The position numbers and the translations under genes were made by a program. The notes beneath the pieces are model-generated. The model was not told the DNA's origin. It made no database searches and saw only the letters and a program-made list of their open reading frames with translations. From assembly GCA_948467395.1 (NCBI GenBank), contig CAOKDX010000001.1, forward strand, positions 397,239 through 461,238: 64,000 nucleotides of DNA, written 5' to 3'. Source of the stretch: an uncultured Clostridia bacterium. GTDB taxonomy: Bacteria; Bacillota; Clostridia; Lachnospirales; Lachnospiraceae. This document shows positions 42,481 through 57,284 of the stretch, one piece after another; the stretch's first letter is position 1; each line of letters opens with the position of its first letter.

Positions 42481-44262
42481 ATGGGGAGAGAAGGTCTGTA
42501 TGGCGCTATTTTTGTAGTCAGCCTGGCATCATTGGTTCTGGCAGGAGGGACAAATATGGCTGAGTCAGCAGAGGAGCATCGGAAAGAGACGGAGGTATTT
42601 TGCTATGAAGAATTGAAAAAGGAACTGGAAGCTCCGGGGAGGGCTGAGATCAGTGTGAAAGCTTCCTTTGATATTGATGAAACAATCTATATCAAAGGGG
42701 AGAAAATATTAAATGGAAACGGGTATACTCTCAGCCGCAGGAAGAGTGGAGGAGTAATATTTGGCGGCACTCTATTTAGTGTCCAGATGGGGCAGGTTTT
42801 GATACAGAACCTTCATCTGCTTGGGGGAGGAGGTTCAGAAGAACTGCAGAAAAGTGTATATGGGAGATTGATTGATATTCGGAATGGTATGGTAATACTT
42901 GAGACTGGGACCGTGTTGGAAAGGAATATCAATGAGAAATTTAACCATGATGGAGGCGGAGCCGTTCTCGTACAGGAGGGAGGAAAACTGACGATGAATG
43001 GAGGACGGATTGCGAGGAATGAAAATGTGTCCGGAGGTGCAGGAGTACATATCGGACAGGGTGGAGAATTTGTTATGAAGGGTGGAACGATTACAGGGAA
43101 TCAGTCATTTGGAATCGGTGCAGTAGAAGGTTTTGACGGGCGCGGCGGCGCCATATACAATCAGGGAAAGACAACCATATCCGGCGGCAGTATCAGCAAT
43201 AACCGGGTAAAGGGATATACCAGCGGCGGCATGAGTTATGGCGGTGTTGGCGGGATGCTCTATAATCAGGGAGAGTGCTGTATTCAGGGCGGAAGTGTAA
43301 CAGGAAACAGCGCTTCTTATGGAGGAGGGGCAGTTTACAGCGATCGGGGGTCAATGCTGCAGATCACGGGTGGAACCATACGCGGCAATGATGCGGATCT
43401 GGGGGCGGGTCTTTTTCTGGCTGGGGGCAGCTGCCGCATAGGCGGAGTTTTTTATCTTTCGGATGCCTATCTTGCAAAAGGTACTGCCATGACAGCAGAA
43501 GCTTCTTTGTCACTGAAAGGATACCGGATCCGCATTTTTCCGGAGAAATATGAAACGGGAATCTGTCTGGTGAAGCTGTCCGGAAGAATAGCGGCAGCTG
43601 AAACGATGTTTTCACTGAGGGAGAAGGGAAGATATGTGCTGGTTACAGAGACGAGGAGCCTTTGTATCGGCAGGAGGAAGAAGAAAATGTCTCGACCTGT
43701 TCCGAAAACAACAGATGGATCACTCCGGAAACCAGGGAAGGGTACGGAGAGGAAAAAGAAAGCGGCCGGCGCCGTATCCGGCGGCAAAAAGAAATTGGTA
43801 TCAGTCAGAACAGCTCCGCGCTATTTCTTTGTATGGGAGGTTAGAGACTATACAGAGGAAAAGTGGCGTCATGAGTTATTGGCAGGATGCAAAATCCGGT
43901 ATGGGGATCAAAAGAAAGAGGAAATTATATTTCGGTGGAAATGGAATGGTCTGCTGCAGAATAAAGCGGGCAGCTATCAGGCAGAGGTGTCGGTGGGAGA
44001 GGGAGACCGGGCAGTAATTCCCGTAACCCTGGTGCAGGAGAGCACAGAAGAACAAAAGGCGGGTTATGTCCGGTTTCAGACTTCCGGCACAGCGAATGAG
44101 ACATCTGTAGAAAGAGGAAAATCTGTACCGGAGGAGGTGTGGTATTTTGGAAAAAGGGATATTGAGAGGCTCCACGGCTTCATGAGACAGAGGGAAGATC
44201 CCTTCTCTTCTGCGGCCAATCAGAAATTTCTGACTCTCTTTGGGAGGTGTCGGATGAGTTAG
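42481..44262 (+). CDS. secreted right-handed beta-helix protein of the Tad-like operon
   Basis: 593 residues. An N-terminal signal sequence (LYGAIFVVSLASLVLAGG) is followed by a Gly-rich parallel beta-helix, about 65-310, with repeated rungs such as GGKLTMNGGRIARNE, GGEFVMKGGTITGNQ and GKTTISGGSISNN. A Lys/Arg-rich linker near 400-440 separates it from a C-terminal domain with a CYS-poor beta pattern (APRYFFVWEVRDYTEEKW). Beta-helices usually bind or cleave polysaccharide, but catalytic residues cannot be identified. It starts 4 bp after the TadZ-like gene and overlaps the approach to tadA. It is probably an envelope-exposed component. Confidence 0.7.
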   Translation: MGREGLYGAIFVVSLASLVLAGGTNMAESAEEHRKETEVFCYEELKKELEAPGRAEISVKASFDIDETIYIKGEKILNGNGYTLSRRKSGGVIFGGTLFSVQMGQVLIQNLHLLGGGGSEELQKSVYGRLIDIRNGMVILETGTVLERNINEKFNHDGGGAVLVQEGGKLTMNGGRIARNENVSGGAGVHIGQGGEFVMKGGTITGNQSFGIGAVEGFDGRGGAIYNQGKTTISGGSISNNRVKGYTSGGMSYGGVGGMLYNQGECCIQGGSVTGNSASYGGGAVYSDRGSMLQITGGTIRGNDADLGAGLFLAGGSCRIGGVFYLSDAYLAKGTAMTAEASLSLKGYRIRIFPEKYETGICLVKLSGRIAAAETMFSLREKGRYVLVTETRSLCIGRRKKKMSRPVPKTTDGSLRKPGKGTERKKKAAGAVSGGKKKLVSVRTAPRYFFVWEVRDYTEEKWRHELLAGCKIRYGDQKKEEIIFRWKWNGLLQNKAGSYQAEVSVGEGDRAVIPVTLVQESTEEQKAGYVRFQTSGTANETSVERGKSVPEEVWYFGKRDIERLHGFMRQREDPFSSAANQKFLTLFGRCRMS

Positions 44263-44279
44263 GAGGAATCGGGGATGGT

Positions 44280-45335
44280 ATGAATGAGTTTCAAAGAAAA
44301 TTTATGTTAAAGCGACAGGATTATGGAATCCTTTATCCGTACATTATAATGGAAAGTGTGACAGATATTAACTGGAATGGTAAGCAGCTTTGGATTGATG
44401 ATCTAAAAAGAGGGCGTTTTATGGCGCCGGAAGTATTGTCAGATACATTTGTAGACCGATTTGTACTACTTTTGTCTAATGTTTCGGGGCTTCCGTTTAA
44501 CCGGATGAATCCCGTGCTGGAGGCGGAGACAGAGGAATTACGAATCAGTGTTGTCCATTCCTGTGTGGCACATGGCGGGATTACTATTTCTCTGCGCAAG
44601 ATACCGGCCGTCAGACGTCTTGACCGGGTGGAAATGCTGCAGAGTGGATATTGCAGTGAGGAAATATGTGATTTTCTTATCCGATGTGTACAGGCGCACT
44701 GTTCTATTGCGATTTGCGGTCTTCCGGGTGCGGGGAAGACAGAGCTGCTGAAATTTCTCACTAAATTTATTCCAGCGGCGGAACGGGTGATAACAATTGA
44801 AGATGTGCTGGAAATCCATTATCAGAGAATTAATCCCAATAAGGATTGTGTTGAGATGAAAGTGGCTGAGAACTTTACTTATACGGAGGCAATCAAGGCA
44901 TGTCTCAGACAGCTGCCCAAATGGATTATCTTATCGGAGACAAGATCGACAGAGGTAAGGTATCTTCTGGAATCCCTCAGCACAGGGGCACATGGGCTCA
45001 CAACGATTCACGCAGATGATGTCCGGAATATTCCGGACCGGATGAAAAATATGGCAGGCGGCACGGAGGATCTAAACCGGATTGAAAATGATACTTACCG
45101 TTTTATTGACATTGGTATTCTTGTAAAAAGCTTTCGTGAGGATGCCGGTGGAATAAGGCGCAGGATTGAGCAGATTGGGGTATTTGACAGGTACGGGAGG
45201 GAGTGGAAGGAAAGCATCAATGAGATTACAATGGTGGTAGAAGACGGCAAGGTAGTCAGCAGAAAACTCCCTGTAAACATAGCGGGCAAATTTGCCGAAG
45301 CAGGGTTTCCTGAGCCGCTGGGAGGTCCAAGGTGA
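44280..45335 (+). CDS. Tad/CpaF-type secretion ATPase
   Basis: 351 residues, the hexameric motor for pilus assembly (TadA/CpaF, type II/IV secretion ATPase family). Walker A is GLPGAGKT at 147-154. ITIEDVLEIH matches the Asp box region. The Walker B region is WIILSETRSTEV, where family members usually have GE.R. A His box follows as STGAHGLTTIHADD. The N-terminal domain is short. Start ATG 44280 has AGGAGG 13 nt upstream; GTG 44247 in the same frame is an alternative. The 3' end overlaps the platform gene by 4 bp. Confidence 0.85.
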   Translation: MNEFQRKFMLKRQDYGILYPYIIMESVTDINWNGKQLWIDDLKRGRFMAPEVLSDTFVDRFVLLLSNVSGLPFNRMNPVLEAETEELRISVVHSCVAHGGITISLRKIPAVRRLDRVEMLQSGYCSEEICDFLIRCVQAHCSIAICGLPGAGKTELLKFLTKFIPAAERVITIEDVLEIHYQRINPNKDCVEMKVAENFTYTEAIKACLRQLPKWIILSETRSTEVRYLLESLSTGAHGLTTIHADDVRNIPDRMKNMAGGTEDLNRIENDTYRFIDIGILVKSFREDAGGIRRRIEQIGVFDRYGREWKESINEITMVVEDGKVVSRKLPVNIAGKFAEAGFPEPLGGPR

Positions 45336-46624
45336 AGAAATATTTTTGGGAAACTGCAATTTTGGGGGTGTTTCTCTTTGCTCTTCGGAGTATGTTTTCC
45401 CTTCGTATCATTCCATTATCCTGTATTGGGGCAGCCGGATTCTTTCTTCTGCCGGTCGTGGACCGGTGTATACGGCGCAATAATGAGACAAGAGTAGAAT
45501 TCTTTCAGGTGACTGCATATATGGAGCAGTTGTTGTGCTCATACAAGAGGCTGGGCACAATTCCACCTGTCATTGCGGACTGCAGCAGGCTGTATCCGAT
45601 TGAGAGCCGGATCGGTTATGCTCTGCAGCAGGTACTGTATATATTGAAGACGGGAGAAGGAGTCCGGAATAATGCCATAACGGAAACGGCACTTAAGAAA
45701 ATAGAGGATCTGTATCCAAGCCGCAGATTGCGGATGATCCATATATTTCTGTGCAGGGCAGAGGAGACAGGGGGAGAGAGGGAAGAGGAACTGGATATTC
45801 TTTTGCAGGATCTGCAGATGTGGAAACGAAGGGTTCTTTTGTTTCAGAAGAAAAAGGAATATGTCCGGAGAGAGAGCATCGTAGCCACGATACTGTCAAT
45901 ACTGCTGTGTTACCTGTCAGTCCGCCTTATACCATGGAATCTGAGAGAGAGGCTGACAGGAACGGATTTGTTTCAATATTCTACTTCTGTAGTTCTAATT
46001 TTGCTGGTTGCGGCAGAAGTAATTCTGATGCACCGACTCACAGGCTCCTGGCTTGATATACAGGAATTGAATGCGGCAGATAGACGCAGGCGGACTAAGT
46101 GTTATCGTAGAGTAAAAAGCGGCGGCAGAGGGATAGCTGGATATTTGGCGGGGAAATTCTGCCAGAAAGAGGTGGAGAAGGAGTTTCCCTTCTGGCTTTT
46201 GTCCCTGACCTTGTATCTGCAGCAGGAGGGAGTTTATCAGGCGATCAAAATGTGCCGGACACAGCAGGGAGAGTTTTTTGACGAAGAGGTTCGGGGGCTG
46301 CTTGATGCCATTTACGAAAATCCTTCCTCCCTTCAGCCCTATCTTGATTTTTTTAAAGAACTCGAACTGCCTGAATTGCAGACAGGAATGAAACTTCTCT
46401 ATGCAGTGGGCAGTAACAGCCGCGCAGATACAGGACGTCAGCTTCGTTTTCTGGTGGAACAGAATAGTATTGTCATGGATCAGAGCGAACGGAATCGTTT
46501 TGACAGTCAGATTGCAGGGATGGCATTTATCAAGCAGATTCCATTGATTATTGCCTGTGCCAAGGTGGTATTCGATTTGCTTCTGCTATTGATGATAACG
46601 ATGGGAAGATATCTGATTATATGA
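45332..46624 (+). CDS. Tad-like inner-membrane platform protein (TadB/TadC type)
   Basis: 430 residues with membrane helices near residues 8-45, about 185-240 and at the C-terminus (about 395-428). The two cytoplasmic stretches are rich in helices typical of type II/IV platform proteins. The position directly after the ATPase supports the assignment, as tadA-tadB-tadC is the standard order. Only one large platform protein is seen instead of separate TadB and TadC. GTG start with GGGAGGT upstream, overlapping the previous stop. Confidence 0.7.
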   Translation: MKKYFWETAILGVFLFALRSMFSLRIIPLSCIGAAGFFLLPVVDRCIRRNNETRVEFFQVTAYMEQLLCSYKRLGTIPPVIADCSRLYPIESRIGYALQQVLYILKTGEGVRNNAITETALKKIEDLYPSRRLRMIHIFLCRAEETGGEREEELDILLQDLQMWKRRVLLFQKKKEYVRRESIVATILSILLCYLSVRLIPWNLRERLTGTDLFQYSTSVVLILLVAAEVILMHRLTGSWLDIQELNAADRRRRTKCYRRVKSGGRGIAGYLAGKFCQKEVEKEFPFWLLSLTLYLQQEGVYQAIKMCRTQQGEFFDEEVRGLLDAIYENPSSLQPYLDFFKELELPELQTGMKLLYAVGSNSRADTGRQLRFLVEQNSIVMDQSERNRFDSQIAGMAFIKQIPLIIACAKVVFDLLLLLMITMGRYLII

Positions 46625-46628
46625 AAAG

Positions 46629-46745
46629 GTGGTGGACGGCCTGGAGGAGCTGATAGGGGAATTTGCCGAAGCACTGACACTGGCATTATTTGGAGGACTT
46701 ATATTAATTGTTTTTGAATGTTTTCGACTGTATATAGGAGGGTGA
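46629..46745 (+). CDS. tiny membrane protein, candidate Flp-like pilin
   Basis: A 38-residue frame from a GTG after the platform gene: a short acidic N-terminus (VDGLEELIGEFAEAL) followed by one membrane helix (TLALFGGLILIVFECF). Size, position and the Glu before the hydrophobic stretch recall Flp pilins, but a G/E prepilin cleavage site is not clear and the ribosome site is poor (AAAAGG too close). It fills an otherwise empty 125-bp gap in a tightly packed operon, which is the main argument for it. Confidence 0.4.
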   Translation: MVDGLEELIGEFAEALTLALFGGLILIVFECFRLYIGG

Positions 46746-46749
46746 TCTA

Positions 46750-47181
46750 ATGCATGAATTTGGCTCATTATATGGGAAAGTTTGTTTTCGCATCCTGTTT
46801 ATATTTTTACTGGCAGCTGCCAGCTTCTTTCTGTTTCGTTGGGCGTGGCATCAGTATGGGATTGCATCAGACGGAGGAGCGGCGGGTCTTATGGGGAATC
46901 AGACATGGGATGGGAGACCGGTGATTCATGCAGAAAGCTGCCGGTTTCCCCAGGGGCAGCGTGTGGAGCTCACCAGTCTGGCGTCGGCCAGGGATGTAAA
47001 CGGAGATAATCTCACAGACAAAATCATTTATCAGAAAGAGGACGGAAGCAGGCTGTCCGGTTGTCTTGATACAGAGAGTCCGGGGATCTATCCGCTGGTA
47101 ATCCGTGTTCTGAGCCCGATAACGGGAGGGGAGAGCAAAAGAAATATAATTGTTCTGGTGGACGGGAGGGTGAGATCATGA
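46750..47181 (+). CDS. membrane-anchored protein of the Tad-like operon
   Basis: 143 residues: one N-terminal membrane helix (CFRILFIFLLAAASFFLFRWAW), then an extracellular domain of about 110 residues that looks like a beta-sandwich (VELTSLASARDVNGDNLTDKIIYQ, ESPGIYPLVIRVLSP). The domain resembles cadherin- or Ig-like folds in surface proteins. No prepilin motif is obvious. GGAGGGTGATC precedes the ATG, and the 3' end overlaps the next gene by 4 bp. Confidence 0.65.
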   Translation: MHEFGSLYGKVCFRILFIFLLAAASFFLFRWAWHQYGIASDGGAAGLMGNQTWDGRPVIHAESCRFPQGQRVELTSLASARDVNGDNLTDKIIYQKEDGSRLSGCLDTESPGIYPLVIRVLSPITGGESKRNIIVLVDGRVRS

Positions 47182-47510
47182 GAGCAGTGGGAATGCTCAG
47201 TCATTTTGTACTTCTGGTATTTCTGACTCTCTTTCTTTGGACCGGCGTTACCTATGTCTCCCAGAATATACAATATAACAGTGCCAGACAATTTCATGGA
47301 AGCGTGGTACATCAGCTGGAGAACAGTTACTTTTCCCCGGCGGTAATAGAACAATGCAAGGTACAGGCGGGAAAGAACGGATACCGTCTGACGATAGAGA
47401 CCTTTGGTACAGAAAGGCACAGGGATGCCAGGGTGATTCTGGATATGGATTTCATTTATCCGGTCATTCAGAGGGTGGGGCGTTATACGATTGAGGGGTA
47501 TGCAAGATAA
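47178..47510 (+). CDS. TadE-like pseudopilin
   Basis: 110 residues: a single N-terminal hydrophobic helix (LSHFVLLVFLTLFLWTGVTYVSQ) leading without a break into a coiled, then beta-rich domain. This is the layout of TadE/TadF pseudopilins. A canonical processing site is not evident. It overlaps the upstream gene by 4 bp and lies 14 bp before the next. Confidence 0.55.
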   Translation: MRAVGMLSHFVLLVFLTLFLWTGVTYVSQNIQYNSARQFHGSVVHQLENSYFSPAVIEQCKVQAGKNGYRLTIETFGTERHRDARVILDMDFIYPVIQRVGRYTIEGYAR

Positions 47511-47524
47511 AAGGGAGGCAGAGA

Positions 47525-47899
47525 GTGAGGACAGTAATGATATCAGTAATCGGAATCAGTTCTATCCTTCTGACTGTTATGATCCATATTACAATAAATG
47601 AGGAATCGCTTCGAAAGGCAGAGCTAGAGGATGCGCTGGCGGTGGCCATGGATCAGACAATGACGGAAGTGATGGAACAGGGCAGCTATGGAATAGGCAG
47701 CCGGAATGAGCTGGTAGCTGCATTTTTGCAGGCTATGATACAAAAGGTAGATAAAAATACAGATTTGACGGTATTGATCCATAAACTGGATAAAAATAAG
47801 GGAACGATGGATATAGAGGCGGTAGGCGAATATTTGCTTCCGAACCGCAAAAAGAAACGAATTTCGATACGCCGGCAGGTGGTTTTTGCCGGCAGGTAA
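47525..47899 (+). CDS. second TadE/pseudopilin-like protein
   Basis: 124 residues with one N-terminal membrane helix (VMISVIGISSILLTVMIHIT) and an amphipathic helix rich in Glu, then a small domain ending in basic residues. The arrangement parallels the preceding gene, suggesting a pair of minor pilins. GTG start with GGGAGG 6 nt upstream. The large adhesin follows after 21 bp. Confidence 0.55.
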   Translation: MRTVMISVIGISSILLTVMIHITINEESLRKAELEDALAVAMDQTMTEVMEQGSYGIGSRNELVAAFLQAMIQKVDKNTDLTVLIHKLDKNKGTMDIEAVGEYLLPNRKKKRISIRRQVVFAGR

Positions 47900-47920
47900 G
47901 AAGGGGAGGTATCAGGGTTC

Positions 47921-50900
47921 ATGAAACGTTATGGAAAGAGAGCAATTTCATTTCTCATTATTATAATATTGGCTGCGGGTATTTTCTCGCCCCTCTGTGC
48001 AGGGAAACGGGCAGAGGCGGCTGTGGCACATGTATCTCTCTCGAATATGGGAAAGGTGGGTACGCTTTCGGTAGGAAATAAGATAAAAAAAGGCAGCTGG
48101 TGGAAACTGTATATCAATGGCAGCGAGATGTTCTGTCTCAATCTGGGACAGACCTGTCATGCCGGCGATGCGTATCAGTCACAAAGCGACTGGTATTCCA
48201 GTGCGGACACTGGAAAGAAGGGACTTGAGGCATGTATTGGATACTGGTTTGACAAGACAAAAAACAGAAATAATAAGGCATATATTATGGCACAGGCTCT
48301 TTTCTGGGCGGTGGAAGAGGGAGAGCGGTCAAAGTCAGCCCTGACAGAGGTGATCCGGACAATGCAGAAGAATACCGGGTATTACAGCGGACAGACGGCA
48401 GAGGAACTGTATCTGCAGATATTTCAGCCAGGAGGCATTGTGAGGATCCACATCAGTCTGTGGACTTATACCGGAGCTGGACAGAAACGTCAGATTCTGA
48501 TGGATGTGACTTCTACATCCGTTCATAAGCCAAGGCCGAAGAATGTGAACAGCAGGGATGTGTACCGGCAGCGGATTACATTGAATAAGACAGACGAGTT
48601 TGGGAAACCTCTCTCTGGTGTAACATTCCGGCTGGCTGCTGAAAACGTAGATGAGCTCTATTATTTTAAGGCAAAGGGGCTGGGGGATGAAGATGCCGGT
48701 GAGGTGGATGAGAATGCGGATAATTTTGAATTGGAGATGAAGACGGATGAGAGAGGGACGATTGCCTACCGGTTTAATTATCATGTACAATCACAGGATT
48801 ATTATTATTTCACGGCAGAGGAACTGGAGCAGATGAGTGCAGAGGATAAGAAGAAGGCTGTCCAGGATCTGGAAGAGGAGGGGTTTCTTTTCGGAAAGAG
48901 TCTGACCTATCAGGAAGCGAAGGAATTATCGGAGAAGGACATCCAGGAACAGATCCGTGAGATAAAAAATCATTACGAGATCCAGGAAATCGATCCAGGG
49001 AATTCCAATCTCTTTGCTGATACTCAGGTCAAAGAGATTGTACTGGGAGGGGAGAACAGCTGGCAGCAGTTCGAGGGAAGGTGGCCGGAAGACCTTACTG
49101 GTTTATATGAAAATTTCCCCCAGGCATATCAGATGAACCTGTCAAACCGGTATAAAAAGGTTCGTGTGGTTGTGCTGAAAAAGGATGGGGTCAGTCAGGA
49201 TGGCAGGGCGCACGGAGATGCCTCACTGGACGGAGCGCAGTTTCAGTTATATGAGGACCGGGCATGTATGAAGACGGCAAAGGTGTTTGACAGGCAGGGA
49301 ACCCAGCAGGTGGCAGGAGCTTATACGGTTGTGAATGGGAAACTGAAGACAGATTATATCCAGTGTGGAAAGACCTATTATCTGAAAGAGATCAGGGCGC
49401 CCCGGGGTTATAAAATAACAGAAGATGTGTTGGAGATACAGGCAGATGGAAGGGAGTACAAGGCGGAGTATACGGAGGATGCAGAGACATATACGGTAGA
49501 AGAAACGCCTATTCAGGGCAGGATTTCATTAAATAAGTACAGCACGGACGGCACCACGGGGCCAATTGTCAGTGAAGAGGGGGCACAGTTTCAGGTATAT
49601 CTAAAGTCAGCGGGAAGCTATGGGCAGGCAGACGAATATGAGCGGGATCTTATTACTACAGATCGTGACGGGTACGCCTGTACGAAAGATCTGTATTATG
49701 GTGTATATAAGGTGCATCAGATCAGCAGCGGCAGTCTGGATACCGAACTTGTCAATGACTTTGAGGTGGTAATTGATCGGGAGCTGATAGGAAAAACCTA
49801 TCACTCGGTTGTGAACAACAAGCCGTTCCGGGCGTTTTTAAGGGTCATAAAAAAAGATGGAAATACACAGAAAGAGGTCTTAAAGGCGGGCACGACTTAT
49901 CAGATCTATCAGGTAGATCCCCAAACGGGGAAAGAATCTCTTGTAAAGCAGAGCTTTAGCAATGGAATTGAGACTCAGGTTGTGGATCGGTTCCGGTCAG
50001 ATGCGACAGGCAGGATTATGACTGTGGATTCCCTTCCTTCAGGAACCTATCGTATCTATGAGACGGAGGCCGCATCGGGACTGCATATTTCACAGAAGTA
50101 TATTGAAGTGGTGATCCATAGCAAAGCGGGAAACTATACTCGGGAGAAAGATTCTGAGGGAAATGAATACACCACTGTCACGATGGATTATGTGAACAAC
50201 GAAACCTGTGGAAGACTGTCTATCCTCAAGAAGGGACAGCAGTTGAAAAGCTTTGAGAATGGTCTGTTTCAATATCAGGATTCCTTGTTAAAGGGGGCTG
50301 TATTTGAAATCTATGCAGCTGAGGATATTGTCACACAGGATAATCAGAAAACGAACTGGTTTGATAAGGACGCCCTGGTGGCAACGGTTACGACTGGCGT
50401 TGGGGCGGAATTTAAATCAGAGTGCGGCGGGATTACCGGGTATGAGAGGGATGAAGATGGGACAGTGACCATAAATCTGCCGCTTGGCAGATACCGGGTA
50501 GTCGAAAAGCAGACGGTATATGGGTATATTCTGCCGGAGAAGAAGAGCTGGGATGTAGAATTTACGTGGAAAAATAAAGAAGATACCTATGTGCTGAATT
50601 CCACAGAGGATACGGATGAACATGGTGTGATGCAGATCAAAAACCGGCGGGCGAGAAGTGCGGTATCGTTGATCAAGGCAGATCGGGAGGACAAAAGTCC
50701 GATCGGCGGTGCTGTCTTTGATCTGTACAGCAGCAATCATATCTATAATGCGGATGGCGACAGGATCGTAGATGCGGGTGCCCTGCTGGGAACGGTGGAG
50801 ACGGACAAGGAAGGGACTGCGGAATTTGATCTGGATCTGCCGCTGATGTCAAAAGAATTTACAGCAGAAGGAGATTCTGGGAAGGGATTCAATTCAGGGG

Positions 50901-51958
50901 ATTATTATATACAGGAGCGGAAGGTTTCGGACAGCTATTATACAAGGGGAGAGAAATACCCGGTACATCTGGAATATAAGGATCAGGAAACGCCGGTGAT
51001 CACTCGGAAGATATCGGTACAGAATACGCAGACCACAGTGGAGATCAGCAAAGTGTCTGCTGCTGGGAGCGGTGAAATTCCCGGATGTCAGCTGCAGATT
51101 ACGGATGGAGACGGCAATGTAATGGTGTCATGGACTTCTGGCGATGCGGCGTCGGTGAGGCTGGACGAAAATAGTCAGGAGAGAGGATATGAAAATCTTC
51201 GGACAAGGATGGATGAAAAGGGAAATCTTGTGATAGGCGGGCTTTTTCATGATCGGGAATATACACTTACGGAGACGAGACCGGCGGATGGTTATGTCAC
51301 AGCCGACCCGGTGTTTTTCCGCCTGACTGGCCAAAAGACGCCGGAAGGGGAGGTAACACAGGCGGAGATTAAATCCGCAGACGGTACGTTTCTTCCAGGT
51401 TCCGGAAATGAAGTCATTATGATAGATGAACAGACGAAAGTAAGATTTTGTAAGCTGGCGGGTGACCGAACCGGATATCTGGAGGGAGCACAGATTATGG
51501 TTCTTGATTCGGAGGGAGGTGAGATTACCTCCTTTGTCACGAAAGAAGATACGGCAGTGGAATTGAATGGAATATTGGCGGCAGGCACAACCTATATTTT
51601 CAGGGAAATAAAAGCGCCGGAAGGGTATAAAAAATCGGCGGATATCCGCTTTACTGTGCAGGATACCCCAGAGATTCAGGGAGTGGAGATGACCGATATG
51701 AGAATGGAGACGGTGAAATTGAGAGAGGTGCCAAAAGGCTCTGCCATGACTGTTATACCGAAGAAAAAGACACCAAAATCCCGAATGCCAGAAGCAAACA
51801 AATCTGCGCCACAGCCAGAGACGGGCTTTCGGGATGGACATGTGCTGGCGTTAGTGGTATTTGCTGCTGCCGCAATTTCTACAGCGGTTATAGGAATGGT
51901 CTGGTATCGGAGAAGGAGATTTCTGTCTGTGCAGAGGGGAAACGGGGATGAATGCTGA
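47921..51958 (+). CDS. giant surface adhesin with thioester domain, CnaB/SpaA repeats and sorting signal
   Basis: 1345 residues. Residues 1-34 are a signal peptide. Residues about 60-190 resemble a thioester domain: Cys72 in MFCLNLG and Gln125 in AQALFWAVEEG (the TQAAIW-type motif) could form the internal Cys-Gln thioester that bonds host ligands covalently. At least six CnaB/SpaA-type domains follow, recognised by GVTFRLAAE, GAQFQLYED, AQFQVYLKS, GAVFEIYAAED, GAVFDLYSS and YTLTETRPADGY/REIKAPEGYK ends. These domains usually carry Lys-Asn isopeptide bonds. The C-terminus has QPETG at 1298-1302, a membrane helix and RRRR, a sortase-type anchor. GGGAGG precedes the ATG. No sortase gene is in the window. 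Confidence 0.88.
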   Translation: MKRYGKRAISFLIIIILAAGIFSPLCAGKRAEAAVAHVSLSNMGKVGTLSVGNKIKKGSWWKLYINGSEMFCLNLGQTCHAGDAYQSQSDWYSSADTGKKGLEACIGYWFDKTKNRNNKAYIMAQALFWAVEEGERSKSALTEVIRTMQKNTGYYSGQTAEELYLQIFQPGGIVRIHISLWTYTGAGQKRQILMDVTSTSVHKPRPKNVNSRDVYRQRITLNKTDEFGKPLSGVTFRLAAENVDELYYFKAKGLGDEDAGEVDENADNFELEMKTDERGTIAYRFNYHVQSQDYYYFTAEELEQMSAEDKKKAVQDLEEEGFLFGKSLTYQEAKELSEKDIQEQIREIKNHYEIQEIDPGNSNLFADTQVKEIVLGGENSWQQFEGRWPEDLTGLYENFPQAYQMNLSNRYKKVRVVVLKKDGVSQDGRAHGDASLDGAQFQLYEDRACMKTAKVFDRQGTQQVAGAYTVVNGKLKTDYIQCGKTYYLKEIRAPRGYKITEDVLEIQADGREYKAEYTEDAETYTVEETPIQGRISLNKYSTDGTTGPIVSEEGAQFQVYLKSAGSYGQADEYERDLITTDRDGYACTKDLYYGVYKVHQISSGSLDTELVNDFEVVIDRELIGKTYHSVVNNKPFRAFLRVIKKDGNTQKEVLKAGTTYQIYQVDPQTGKESLVKQSFSNGIETQVVDRFRSDATGRIMTVDSLPSGTYRIYETEAASGLHISQKYIEVVIHSKAGNYTREKDSEGNEYTTVTMDYVNNETCGRLSILKKGQQLKSFENGLFQYQDSLLKGAVFEIYAAEDIVTQDNQKTNWFDKDALVATVTTGVGAEFKSECGGITGYERDEDGTVTINLPLGRYRVVEKQTVYGYILPEKKSWDVEFTWKNKEDTYVLNSTEDTDEHGVMQIKNRRARSAVSLIKADREDKSPIGGAVFDLYSSNHIYNADGDRIVDAGALLGTVETDKEGTAEFDLDLPLMSKEFTAEGDSGKGFNSGDYYIQERKVSDSYYTRGEKYPVHLEYKDQETPVITRKISVQNTQTTVEISKVSAAGSGEIPGCQLQITDGDGNVMVSWTSGDAASVRLDENSQERGYENLRTRMDEKGNLVIGGLFHDREYTLTETRPADGYVTADPVFFRLTGQKTPEGEVTQAEIKSADGTFLPGSGNEVIMIDEQTKVRFCKLAGDRTGYLEGAQIMVLDSEGGEITSFVTKEDTAVELNGILAAGTTYIFREIKAPEGYKKSADIRFTVQDTPEIQGVEMTDMRMETVKLREVPKGSAMTVIPKKKTPKSRMPEANKSAPQPETGFRDGHVLALVVFAAAAISTAVIGMVWYRRRRFLSVQRGNGDEC

Positions 51959-55118: not shown

Positions 55119-55147
55119 TTGTGAGATTGTGGAAACTCCGTTATAAT
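55119..55147 (+). promoter_or_regulatory. promoter for the GH13-like gene
   Basis: TTGTGA at 55119-55124 and a perfect TATAAT at 55142-55147 are spaced 17 bp. Transcription would start near 55154, giving a leader of about 98 nt. Confidence 0.65.
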
Positions 55148-55182: not shown

Positions 55183-55208
55183 TAGCTCAAATTGGCACTG
55201 TTGAGCTA
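55183..55208 (+). promoter_or_regulatory. inverted repeat in the leader of the GH13-like gene
   Basis: TAGCTCAA and TTGAGCTA are perfect 8-bp arms around a 10-nt loop, inside the transcribed leader about 45 nt before the start codon. The right arm belongs to a 12-mer, CTGTTGAGCTAA, also found at 27290-27301 before adenosine deaminase. It could be an operator or an RNA hairpin. Confidence 0.45.
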
Positions 55209-55251: not shown

Positions 55252-57090
55252 ATGCCAATACTAGACAAGATACAGCTTCAGAAAGCAGCCACATTTAAAC
55301 TGGGAGTTTCCAATATAAGTGAGAACCGGGTACAGGCCGCCTTTTGGCGCCGGGGAGTGTCACGTTGTCAGCTGTGTCTGTATAAACATGGAAAGAAACA
55401 AAAGATTACGATGGAACCAATGAGAGAATCCGGTATTCGGGATGTTTTCTCTGTAATTATTGAGGGAGAGCATATTACCGAGAGAATGAACGGACTGGAA
55501 TATGATTTTATTGTAGACGGAGAACATGTGACAGATCCCTATGCAAGGGTGATAGCGGGACGGGATCATTTTGGAAAGCCGCACAGGCATATACATGGAA
55601 AATTTGACTTCTCATCCTTTGACTGGACGGGAGAGCGATGGAGACCCCTGTCAGAGCACGAGATGGTGATGTATCAGTGCCATGTCAGGGGATTTACTAA
55701 GCATGCCAGCTCCGGTGTGGAGGCGCCGGGGACGTTTGCCGGCCTGCAGGAGAAGATACCATATATGAAGGAGCTGGGGGTAAATACGATTCTTCCCCTC
55801 CCCATCTACGATTTTGACGAGTGCATCAGGGACGACGAGGGAAATCCGACTGGTAAAGTGAATTACTGGGGATATACGGGAGATGCGTTCTATTTTGCTC
55901 CTAAGACAGGCTACAGTAGCGGCAGGGCGAGCGCTCCGGAGGAACTTAAGACACTGGTAAAATCCCTTCATCAGAATCATATGAATCTAATACTGGATAT
56001 GCATTTTATAGACAGGACGCCGGAATTTATACTGGAATGTCTCAGATATTATGTTCTGGAGTATCATGTGGATGGTTTCCGGATCAACCAGGAATCCATG
56101 GATACATCCTGGCTCAGACTGGATCCGGTTCTGTCCCACACGAAGCTGCTGGCAGGGAGCTGGGGCCGTCAGCCTGAGAACCGGAACCATCCGGTCTGTT
56201 ATGAGATGAACGACGGCTTTCTTGTGGATGCCAGGCGGTTTCTCAAAAGTGATGAGGGACAGGTGGCAAATATATATAAGCGTTTCCGCGAACAGGGAGA
56301 CGGTGTGGGACTGGTTCACTACATTACCCAGCACAATGGTTTTACCCTGCGGGATCTGATTTCTTATGATGTCAAACACAATGAGGCAAACGGCGAGCGT
56401 GGGAGAGATGGGACAGAGCTTAATTATAGCTGGAATTGCGGCGTTGAGGGACCGAGCCGGCGAAGACAGGTGGTGCAGACACGGAAACAGCAGGAGAGAA
56501 ATGCCTTTGTAATGCTGCTTCTGGGGATGGCGGTGCCAATGCTGCTGGCGGGGGACGAATTTGGCAACTCACAGAAGGGAAATAACAATGCCTATTGTCA
56601 GGATAATGTGACAACATGGCTTGACTGGAGACTGCTGGAGAGAAATCAGAAGACCTATCGTTTTGTAAAAGAGCTGCTGGCCTTTCGCCGGAAACATCCA
56701 TTATACCATCAGGACAAGCCGCTTACTGGTCTGGATACGAAAGGAAGAGGAGCCCCGGATGTATCCTGTCACGGGAAGGAACCGTGGGTCATCGACTTTT
56801 CTTATTACAGCAGAAAACTGGGTATTTTGTTTTATGGGAGCTATTTTGAGGGAAAGAGCCTGTATTTTGCGTTTAATTTTCACTGGGAGGAGCAGGAATT
56901 TTATATTCCTAATGTGGAAAATAACAAGGAGTGGAAAATTCTGGTGGATACTGCGGAGACCGGAGCAAAAATTGTCAGTAATGGTATTTATATGATGCCG
57001 GCCCGTTCCATTACAGTGTTTGAGAGCGTATGTAACCGGTCAGCGGAGGCTGACCGGAAGAAAAAGAAGAGTTCTAAGAAAAGGACTTAG
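55252..57090 (+). CDS. GH13 glycogen-debranching-like protein lacking all catalytic residues
   Basis: 612 residues, resembling isoamylase/GlgX over its full length: an N-terminal CBM48-like beta domain (about 15-105), a TIM barrel (about 135-500) and a C-terminal beta domain. The conserved blocks are recognisable but the active site is gone. Region II reads DGFRINQES, with nucleophile Asp replaced by Asn279. Region III reads KLLAGSWG, with acid/base Glu replaced by Gly302. Region IV reads QHNGFTLRDLISY, with Asp replaced by Asn362. Region I is LDMHFI instead of LDVVYNHT. The frame is intact, so it is probably a glucan-binding or regulatory pseudoenzyme. GAAGGGAAG precedes the ATG; the end overlaps the next, convergent gene by 4 bp. 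Confidence 0.85.
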   Translation: MPILDKIQLQKAATFKLGVSNISENRVQAAFWRRGVSRCQLCLYKHGKKQKITMEPMRESGIRDVFSVIIEGEHITERMNGLEYDFIVDGEHVTDPYARVIAGRDHFGKPHRHIHGKFDFSSFDWTGERWRPLSEHEMVMYQCHVRGFTKHASSGVEAPGTFAGLQEKIPYMKELGVNTILPLPIYDFDECIRDDEGNPTGKVNYWGYTGDAFYFAPKTGYSSGRASAPEELKTLVKSLHQNHMNLILDMHFIDRTPEFILECLRYYVLEYHVDGFRINQESMDTSWLRLDPVLSHTKLLAGSWGRQPENRNHPVCYEMNDGFLVDARRFLKSDEGQVANIYKRFREQGDGVGLVHYITQHNGFTLRDLISYDVKHNEANGERGRDGTELNYSWNCGVEGPSRRRQVVQTRKQQERNAFVMLLLGMAVPMLLAGDEFGNSQKGNNNAYCQDNVTTWLDWRLLERNQKTYRFVKELLAFRRKHPLYHQDKPLTGLDTKGRGAPDVSCHGKEPWVIDFSYYSRKLGILFYGSYFEGKSLYFAFNFHWEEQEFYIPNVENNKEWKILVDTAETGAKIVSNGIYMMPARSITVFESVCNRSAEADRKKKKSSKKRT

Positions 57091-57284
57091 AATCTGTGGT
57101 TTTCCACGATGGGATCAAAGAGATCCAGGGAGCAGTACTTATCCGAGGTGAAGTGTTTGCAGGTGGTGCATGATACCTCAGCATCACCTGATTTGTTCGT
57201 ACAGCTGCAGCGGCAGCAGTCTTTTACGGCGTAAGCACTGCAGTTTTTGGCTACATTTTTATAAGTCTGTTCATCACAACGCAT
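57087..57284 (-). CDS. small cysteine-rich protein
   Basis: 65 residues with nine cysteines in paired spacing (CCRCSC, CTTCKHF, KYCSLD). The spacing suggests metal binding or disulphides; the nearest idea is a DUF1540-like zinc-binding protein, but this is not certain. No signal peptide or membrane helix. GGAGGT precedes the ATG. Its 3' end overlaps the GH13-like gene by 4 bp on the opposite strand. Confidence 0.7.
   Translation of the reverse strand: MRCDEQTYKNVAKNCSAYAVKDCCRCSCTNKSGDAEVSCTTCKHFTSDKYCSLDLFDPIVENHRF

Follow-up and report, generated by a model that had tools for sequence, protein, structure and literature searches.

A candidate pseudo-debranching enzyme related to GlgX is conserved across a family of Clostridia

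The DNA analyzed here, a stretch of 64,000 nucleotides that we refer to as the window, encodes a 612-aa protein with a GH13_11 debranching-enzyme fold that lacks the catalytic triad, the region I His, and the domain B loop (pseudo-GlgX; 55252..57090, + strand). It is close to certain that this protein and the clade to which it belongs are pseudoenzymes. The account that we favor, and hold with moderate confidence from sequence comparison, is that the clade is a non-catalytic GlgX (GH13_11) paralogue with a single origin at the base of one family (apparently Lachnospiraceae) or close to it, that it has been retained since, and that it binds branched alpha-glucan. The same dead version recurs across the family, so the protein is probably useful, handling glycogen without acting as an enzyme, and the gene is probably not a broken one.

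Results

An earlier note on this DNA had described the gene as a GH13 debranching-enzyme homologue with all three catalytic residues replaced and with its frame and flanking motifs preserved, and both descriptions held. The open reading frame is intact, and alignment with 61 homologues carrying the D/E/D triad places Asn279 (56086..56088, +) at the nucleophile column, Gly302 (56155..56157, +) at the acid/base column, and Asn362 (56335..56337, +) at the column of the transition-state stabilizer; HVDGFR, KLLA.SW, and QHNGFTLRDL are all present. Two further losses had been overlooked. In the region I equivalent (residues 246 to 255, LILDMHFIDR; 55987..56016, +), the canonical DVVFNHT has become DMHFIDR, with loss of the NH, and the domain B loop of canonical enzymes, a median of 45 residues, is missing after residue 255.

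The predicted model of the protein (pLDDT 92) has ISA1, GlgX, and TreX as its nearest structures, and 543 to 564 residues align to the GlgX and TreX structures at about 31 to 32% identity. Model and structure alignments together contain the GH13_11 architecture of a CBM48-like N domain, a barrel, and a C-terminal beta-sandwich, the layout given in an excerpt of PMC12510319. Pseudo-GlgX resembles GlgX and archaeal TreX (GH13_11; TIGR02100) in its fold and in a conserved half bearing SWNCGxEG and GNNNAYCQDN, and differs from them in the loss of triad, region I His, and domain B loop and in scoring 305.6 bits against the TIGR02100 equivalog cutoff of 640.9.

The protein is widespread among relatives. 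Within the genus, 35 of 36 other genomes have a match (29 of these proteins were read), the exception being a genome (G010) that is 61% complete. Across the family, 173 of 200 genomes, each at least 90% complete, match the window protein. We counted as carriers the 150 genomes in which one listed match starts before residue 240 and ends after residue 280, and so spans the site of the missing loop; 30 of these proteins were read, and all 30 lack the triad. The remaining 50 genomes comprise 27 with no match and 23 with weak or unlisted matches, which we left unclassified. Beyond the family, 24 genomes from the same order gave no match spanning residues 240 to 280, and the 3 of 147 genomes of the class with a full-length profile match all belong to the family of the window. 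Named carriers, drawn from the best 80 of at least 597 matches and so a non-random sample, include Velocimicrobium and Anaerocolumna, which is why the family is apparently Lachnospiraceae.

In total, 77 triad-less proteins were read, including that of the window. This set excludes a second copy of the window gene (L119) and contains two identical proteins (L022 and L031); one protein that is canonical by tree and has a gap at region IV (L061) was counted neither here nor among the 61 canonical enzymes. We looked for D/E/D in orthologues from sister species, which would have pointed to a recent inactivation, and found it in 0/77. Individual residues are kept rarely (D279 in 2/77, E302 in 4/77, D362 in 9/77, and the region I His in 0/77), and the domain B insert columns are empty in 76 to 77 of the 77. 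The exact replacement N/G/N, whose conservation the earlier note had asked about, is not a fixed signature: Asn is found at 279 in 45/77 and at 362 in 58/77, and position 302 is variable.

A quick tree built from 139 proteins puts the 77 triad-less sequences on one side of a branch (SH-aLRT 100) and 62 canonical sequences on the other. Purifying selection, also raised in the earlier note, is evident in close pairs: dN/dS was 0.05 to 0.08 (NG86) or 0.05 to 0.10 (YN00) in the 7 of 13 pairs tried with 0 < dS < 1, the other 6 having dS >1, no estimate, or no differences. Taken together, a single clade without D/E/D in any member read, purifying selection, and family-wide presence strongly support a conserved pseudoenzyme. 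The loss of catalytic residues is all that speaks for a recent inactivating mutation or a decaying pseudogene, and we rejected this explanation as extremely improbable given the genus-wide matches, the long open frames of family-wide orthologues, their grouping in one triad-less clade, and these dN/dS values.

Four members of the clade stand apart at the catalytic columns. Two (L033 and L039) read T/E/D and V/E/D, with the Glu and Asp of the triad kept and the nucleophile gone, as if it had been lost first. Two others (L023 and L028) carry Asp at the nucleophile column but neither of the other catalytic residues, which may reflect a reversal.

Erosion of the protein is lopsided. Of the 134 columns whose conservation in canonical enzymes is 95% or more, 62 are retained (kept in 85% or more of the 77 proteins), 24 are intermediate, and 48 are lost. 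Among the 112 of these columns that the query contains, residues 1 to 239 keep 21/28 and lose 3, residues 240 to 362 keep 6/45 and lose 23, and residues 363 to 612 keep 35/39 and lose none. The half conserved in the clade (residues 363 to 600; 56338..57051, +) contains the C-terminal beta-sandwich and the barrel loops with KHNEANGE, SWNCGVEG, and GNNNAYCQDN in the window protein. Four columns, E335, D495, R521, and Y531, are newly conserved in the clade.

We next compared these columns with reported glucan contacts. For Streptomyces venezuelae GlgX with acarbose, the available part of PMC9530166 gives Trp222, Tyr224, His271, Asp342, Glu378, Trp380, and His449 as contacts of the -1 sugar and Arg212, Glu470, Asn534, and Tyr536 as contacts of other sugars. 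Among equivalents of these contacts other than Arg212, W206 (77/77), Y208 (75/77), E382 (76/77), N446 (77/77), and Y448 (77/77) are kept; W206 and Y208 were placed by the WGY motif and the other three by alignment (chain index = the paper's number + 3). The E382 equivalent is found in only 42/61 canonical enzymes. The other -1 contact equivalents from the same text fare worse: His271 is matched in 0/77, Asp342 in 2/77, Glu378 in 4/77, W304 in 54/77, and H361 in 27/77. Because W206 and Y208 correspond to -1 subsite contacts in that account, some of the retained residues lie inside the chemistry. A Trp that corresponds by spacing to maize ISA1 W578, reported in partial text as part of a secondary glucan site, is present in 72/77. 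By this comparison, the catalytic chemistry is erased while several reported glucan contacts persist, although motifs of the GNNNAYCQDN type and part of the contact retention may reflect structural constraint instead.

The genome of the window contains GlgA, two GlgB, and two GlgP. A search for a second, active debranching enzyme, as the earlier note had suggested, recognized none but left three GH13 proteins of uncertain specificity, one of which might cleave alpha-1,6 bonds. The assembly, 97.7% complete, yielded no canonical GlgX, no match to PF06202 (GDE) or PF03065 (GH57), and no pullulanase over the cutoff among PF00128 matches; at this completeness, a debrancher gene could be missing from it. 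The PF00128 matches, taken to 1e-30 only, were the window gene, the two GlgB over the cutoff, and three GH13 proteins under all listed cutoffs, whose best match was TreS-like once and maltodextrin glucosidase twice.

This lack of a recognized debrancher would suit a protein that has remained an enzyme, either with its catalytic residues moved elsewhere or with another reaction, as would the acidic residues conserved in the clade (D373, 88%; E382, 76/77; D495, 77/77). Against it stands the joint loss of nucleophile, acid/base, stabilizer, region I His, and domain B loop, and we regard it as quite improbable. The same genome bears on whether pseudo-GlgX serves an active GlgX as an obligate non-catalytic subunit, following the plant precedent of ISA2 with ISA1 (excerpt of PMC12510319). 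In four genus members the triad-less protein does occur alongside a canonical GlgX whose motifs are intact. However, no canonical GlgX was detected in the genome of the window, and in 55 of 150 carriers a single match to the query was detected (all first-look candidates were scored in 51 of the 55 and only six in the other 4), which argues against an obligate GlgX partner and makes such a subunit an unlikely reading.

Glycogen genes were also compared across the family. GlgB was missing over the cutoff from 7 of 200 family genomes, namely 5 of the 27 without a match, 1 of the 23 unclassified, and 1 of the 150 carriers (G212). The difference between 5/27 and 1/150 gave an exploratory Fisher p of 0.0003, kinship being ignored, and p was 0.001, again ignoring kinship, with the 23 unclassified genomes taken as non-carriers. 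GlgB is retained in 22 of 27 non-carriers, so branched glucan can be made without the triad-less protein. Co-occurrence with GlgA is uninformative because it is over the cutoff in 198/200, and GlgP (51/56) gave no contrast. In one 1.5-Mb genome of the family (G241), neither the triad-less protein nor GlgB nor GlgP has a match, and GlgA matches only weakly, an apparent loss of glycogen metabolism.

Gene neighbors were also compared. In 11/11 genus loci compared, an ABC-F ATPase gene is found no more than two genes upstream, and no alpha-glucan gene was recognized within two genes of pseudo-GlgX in 35 loci by clustering (all 35), NCBIfam (five window neighbors), and Pfam (30 neighbors), a scan that leaves out 15 unclustered ORFs of <150 aa, cluster representatives c6 and c11, and further cluster members. 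The sole carbohydrate enzyme among the neighbors scanned was a GH36 alpha-galactosidase encoded between the ABC-F and pseudo-GlgX genes of one genus member (L151:6666-8873), and we rejected the assignment of a function from neighbors. Just 3' of pseudo-GlgX, a 65-aa ORF with nine Cys (57087-57284, -) belongs to a cluster found in 8 of 35 loci compared and had no match in NCBIfam and Pfam searches. Elsewhere in the window (44247-51958), a series of ORFs, which we take to be ATPase and pilus-assembly-like, is followed by a 1345-aa ORF, presumably surface-protein-like, with QPETGF, a presumed sortase-like motif, seen by eye near its end.

The absence of a recognized adjoining alpha-glucan gene is one of the observations that fit a conserved pseudoenzyme whose function is unrelated to glucan, its barrel reused as a protein-interaction or small-ligand module. 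The loss of region I His, triad, and domain B loop would fit as well, and the newly conserved E335, D495, R521, and Y531 could form a new interface. Yet the five reported contacts kept in 75 to 77 of 77, three of them in the conserved half, and GlgB over the cutoff in 149/150 carriers argue for glucan, and we consider a non-glucan function possible but doubtful.

Upstream of the gene, the earlier note had seen a good promoter and an operator-like leader. A promoter-like element (TTGTGA-17-TATAAT; 55119..55147, +) is backed by conservation, as TTGnnn-(16-18)-TAT(A/C)AT precedes the gene in 12 of 14 genus members examined; the window scanned alone gave chance-level results (2 found versus a mean of 1.8 in shuffles). 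The 8-bp inverted repeat TAGCTCAA-N10-TTGAGCTA (55183..55208, no strand) is limited to the window species and its closest relative (2/14), so a conserved operator is unsupported and was rejected.

Discussion

We propose that pseudo-GlgX most likely acts in glycogen metabolism by binding branched alpha-glucan non-catalytically, a role suggested by retained residues and gene co-occurrence. The catalytic residues and the adjacent loop are gone, and the second barrel half, the C-terminal domain, and several contact residues are strongly constrained; such a protein would bind branched alpha-glucan (glycogen, or the limit dextrin left by phosphorylase) but would not cleave it. Once bound, it would occupy branch regions or dock GlgB, GlgA, or GlgP on the polymer, and this occupancy or docking would modulate glycogen synthesis or breakdown. 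The glucan-sensing or scaffolding role put forward in the earlier note would, we infer, fit the retained contact residues. The scheme would resemble the proposal for the plant pseudo-isoamylase ISA2, apparently with no need for an active GlgX partner.

As described in an excerpt of PMC12510319, plant and algal ISA2 (GH13_11) is likewise an ancient retained isoamylase paralogue without catalytic residues, and catalytic loss of this type, nucleophile included, runs across our clade, the 2/77 with Asp at the nucleophile column lacking the other two. The differences are several. By phmmer, the window protein scores closer to ISA1, TreX, and GlgX (180 to 247 bits) than to ISA2 (110 to 114), yet the active Pseudomonas isoamylase falls below ISA2, at 106. 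It lacks the extra N-terminal beta-sandwich of ISA2: the best alignments to GlgX and ISA1 chains start at model residue 1 to 9, with one at 17, and thus leave no room for an extra N-terminal domain. The Trp equivalent to W578 is kept here, and ISA2 is reported, in partial text, to lack that site. Moreover, clade members often have no detected active GlgX. An origin independent of ISA2 is likely, judging from pairwise scores and a tree built without ISA2.

GlgD belongs to another protein family and acts at another pathway step than the window protein. As a regulatory subunit of GlgC, it offers a parallel in bacterial glycogen synthesis, a regulatory partner beside a catalytic one (excerpt of PMC10395257). 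The same excerpt reports two glgX homologues in Blautia obeum, one of which may be the same pseudoenzyme, and in the accessible text of PMC11046441 a table on archaea mentions a GH13 isoform that is inactive. No report of a triad-less bacterial GlgX appeared among the titles and abstract openings found in the open-access literature searched.

A broader possibility, which we advance tentatively, is that a major gut family independently evolved an ISA2-like non-catalytic debrancher and kept it in most genera, part of the ancestral cleft serving as a glucan scaffold that would shape or protect glycogen, in many species without a recognizable active debrancher. We read pseudo-GlgX as a pseudo-debranching enzyme of bacteria, comparable to plant ISA2, that probably binds branched alpha-glucan and leaves it uncut. 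The selective reason for keeping a non-catalytic isoamylase in plants is said, in the excerpt of PMC12510319, not to be understood. With a bacterial clade that shows loss of the same type, in many cases with no active partner detected, non-catalytic glucan handling could be tested in bacteria. Where glgX is counted from annotation in this family, the total may also take in a protein that is not expected to debranch.
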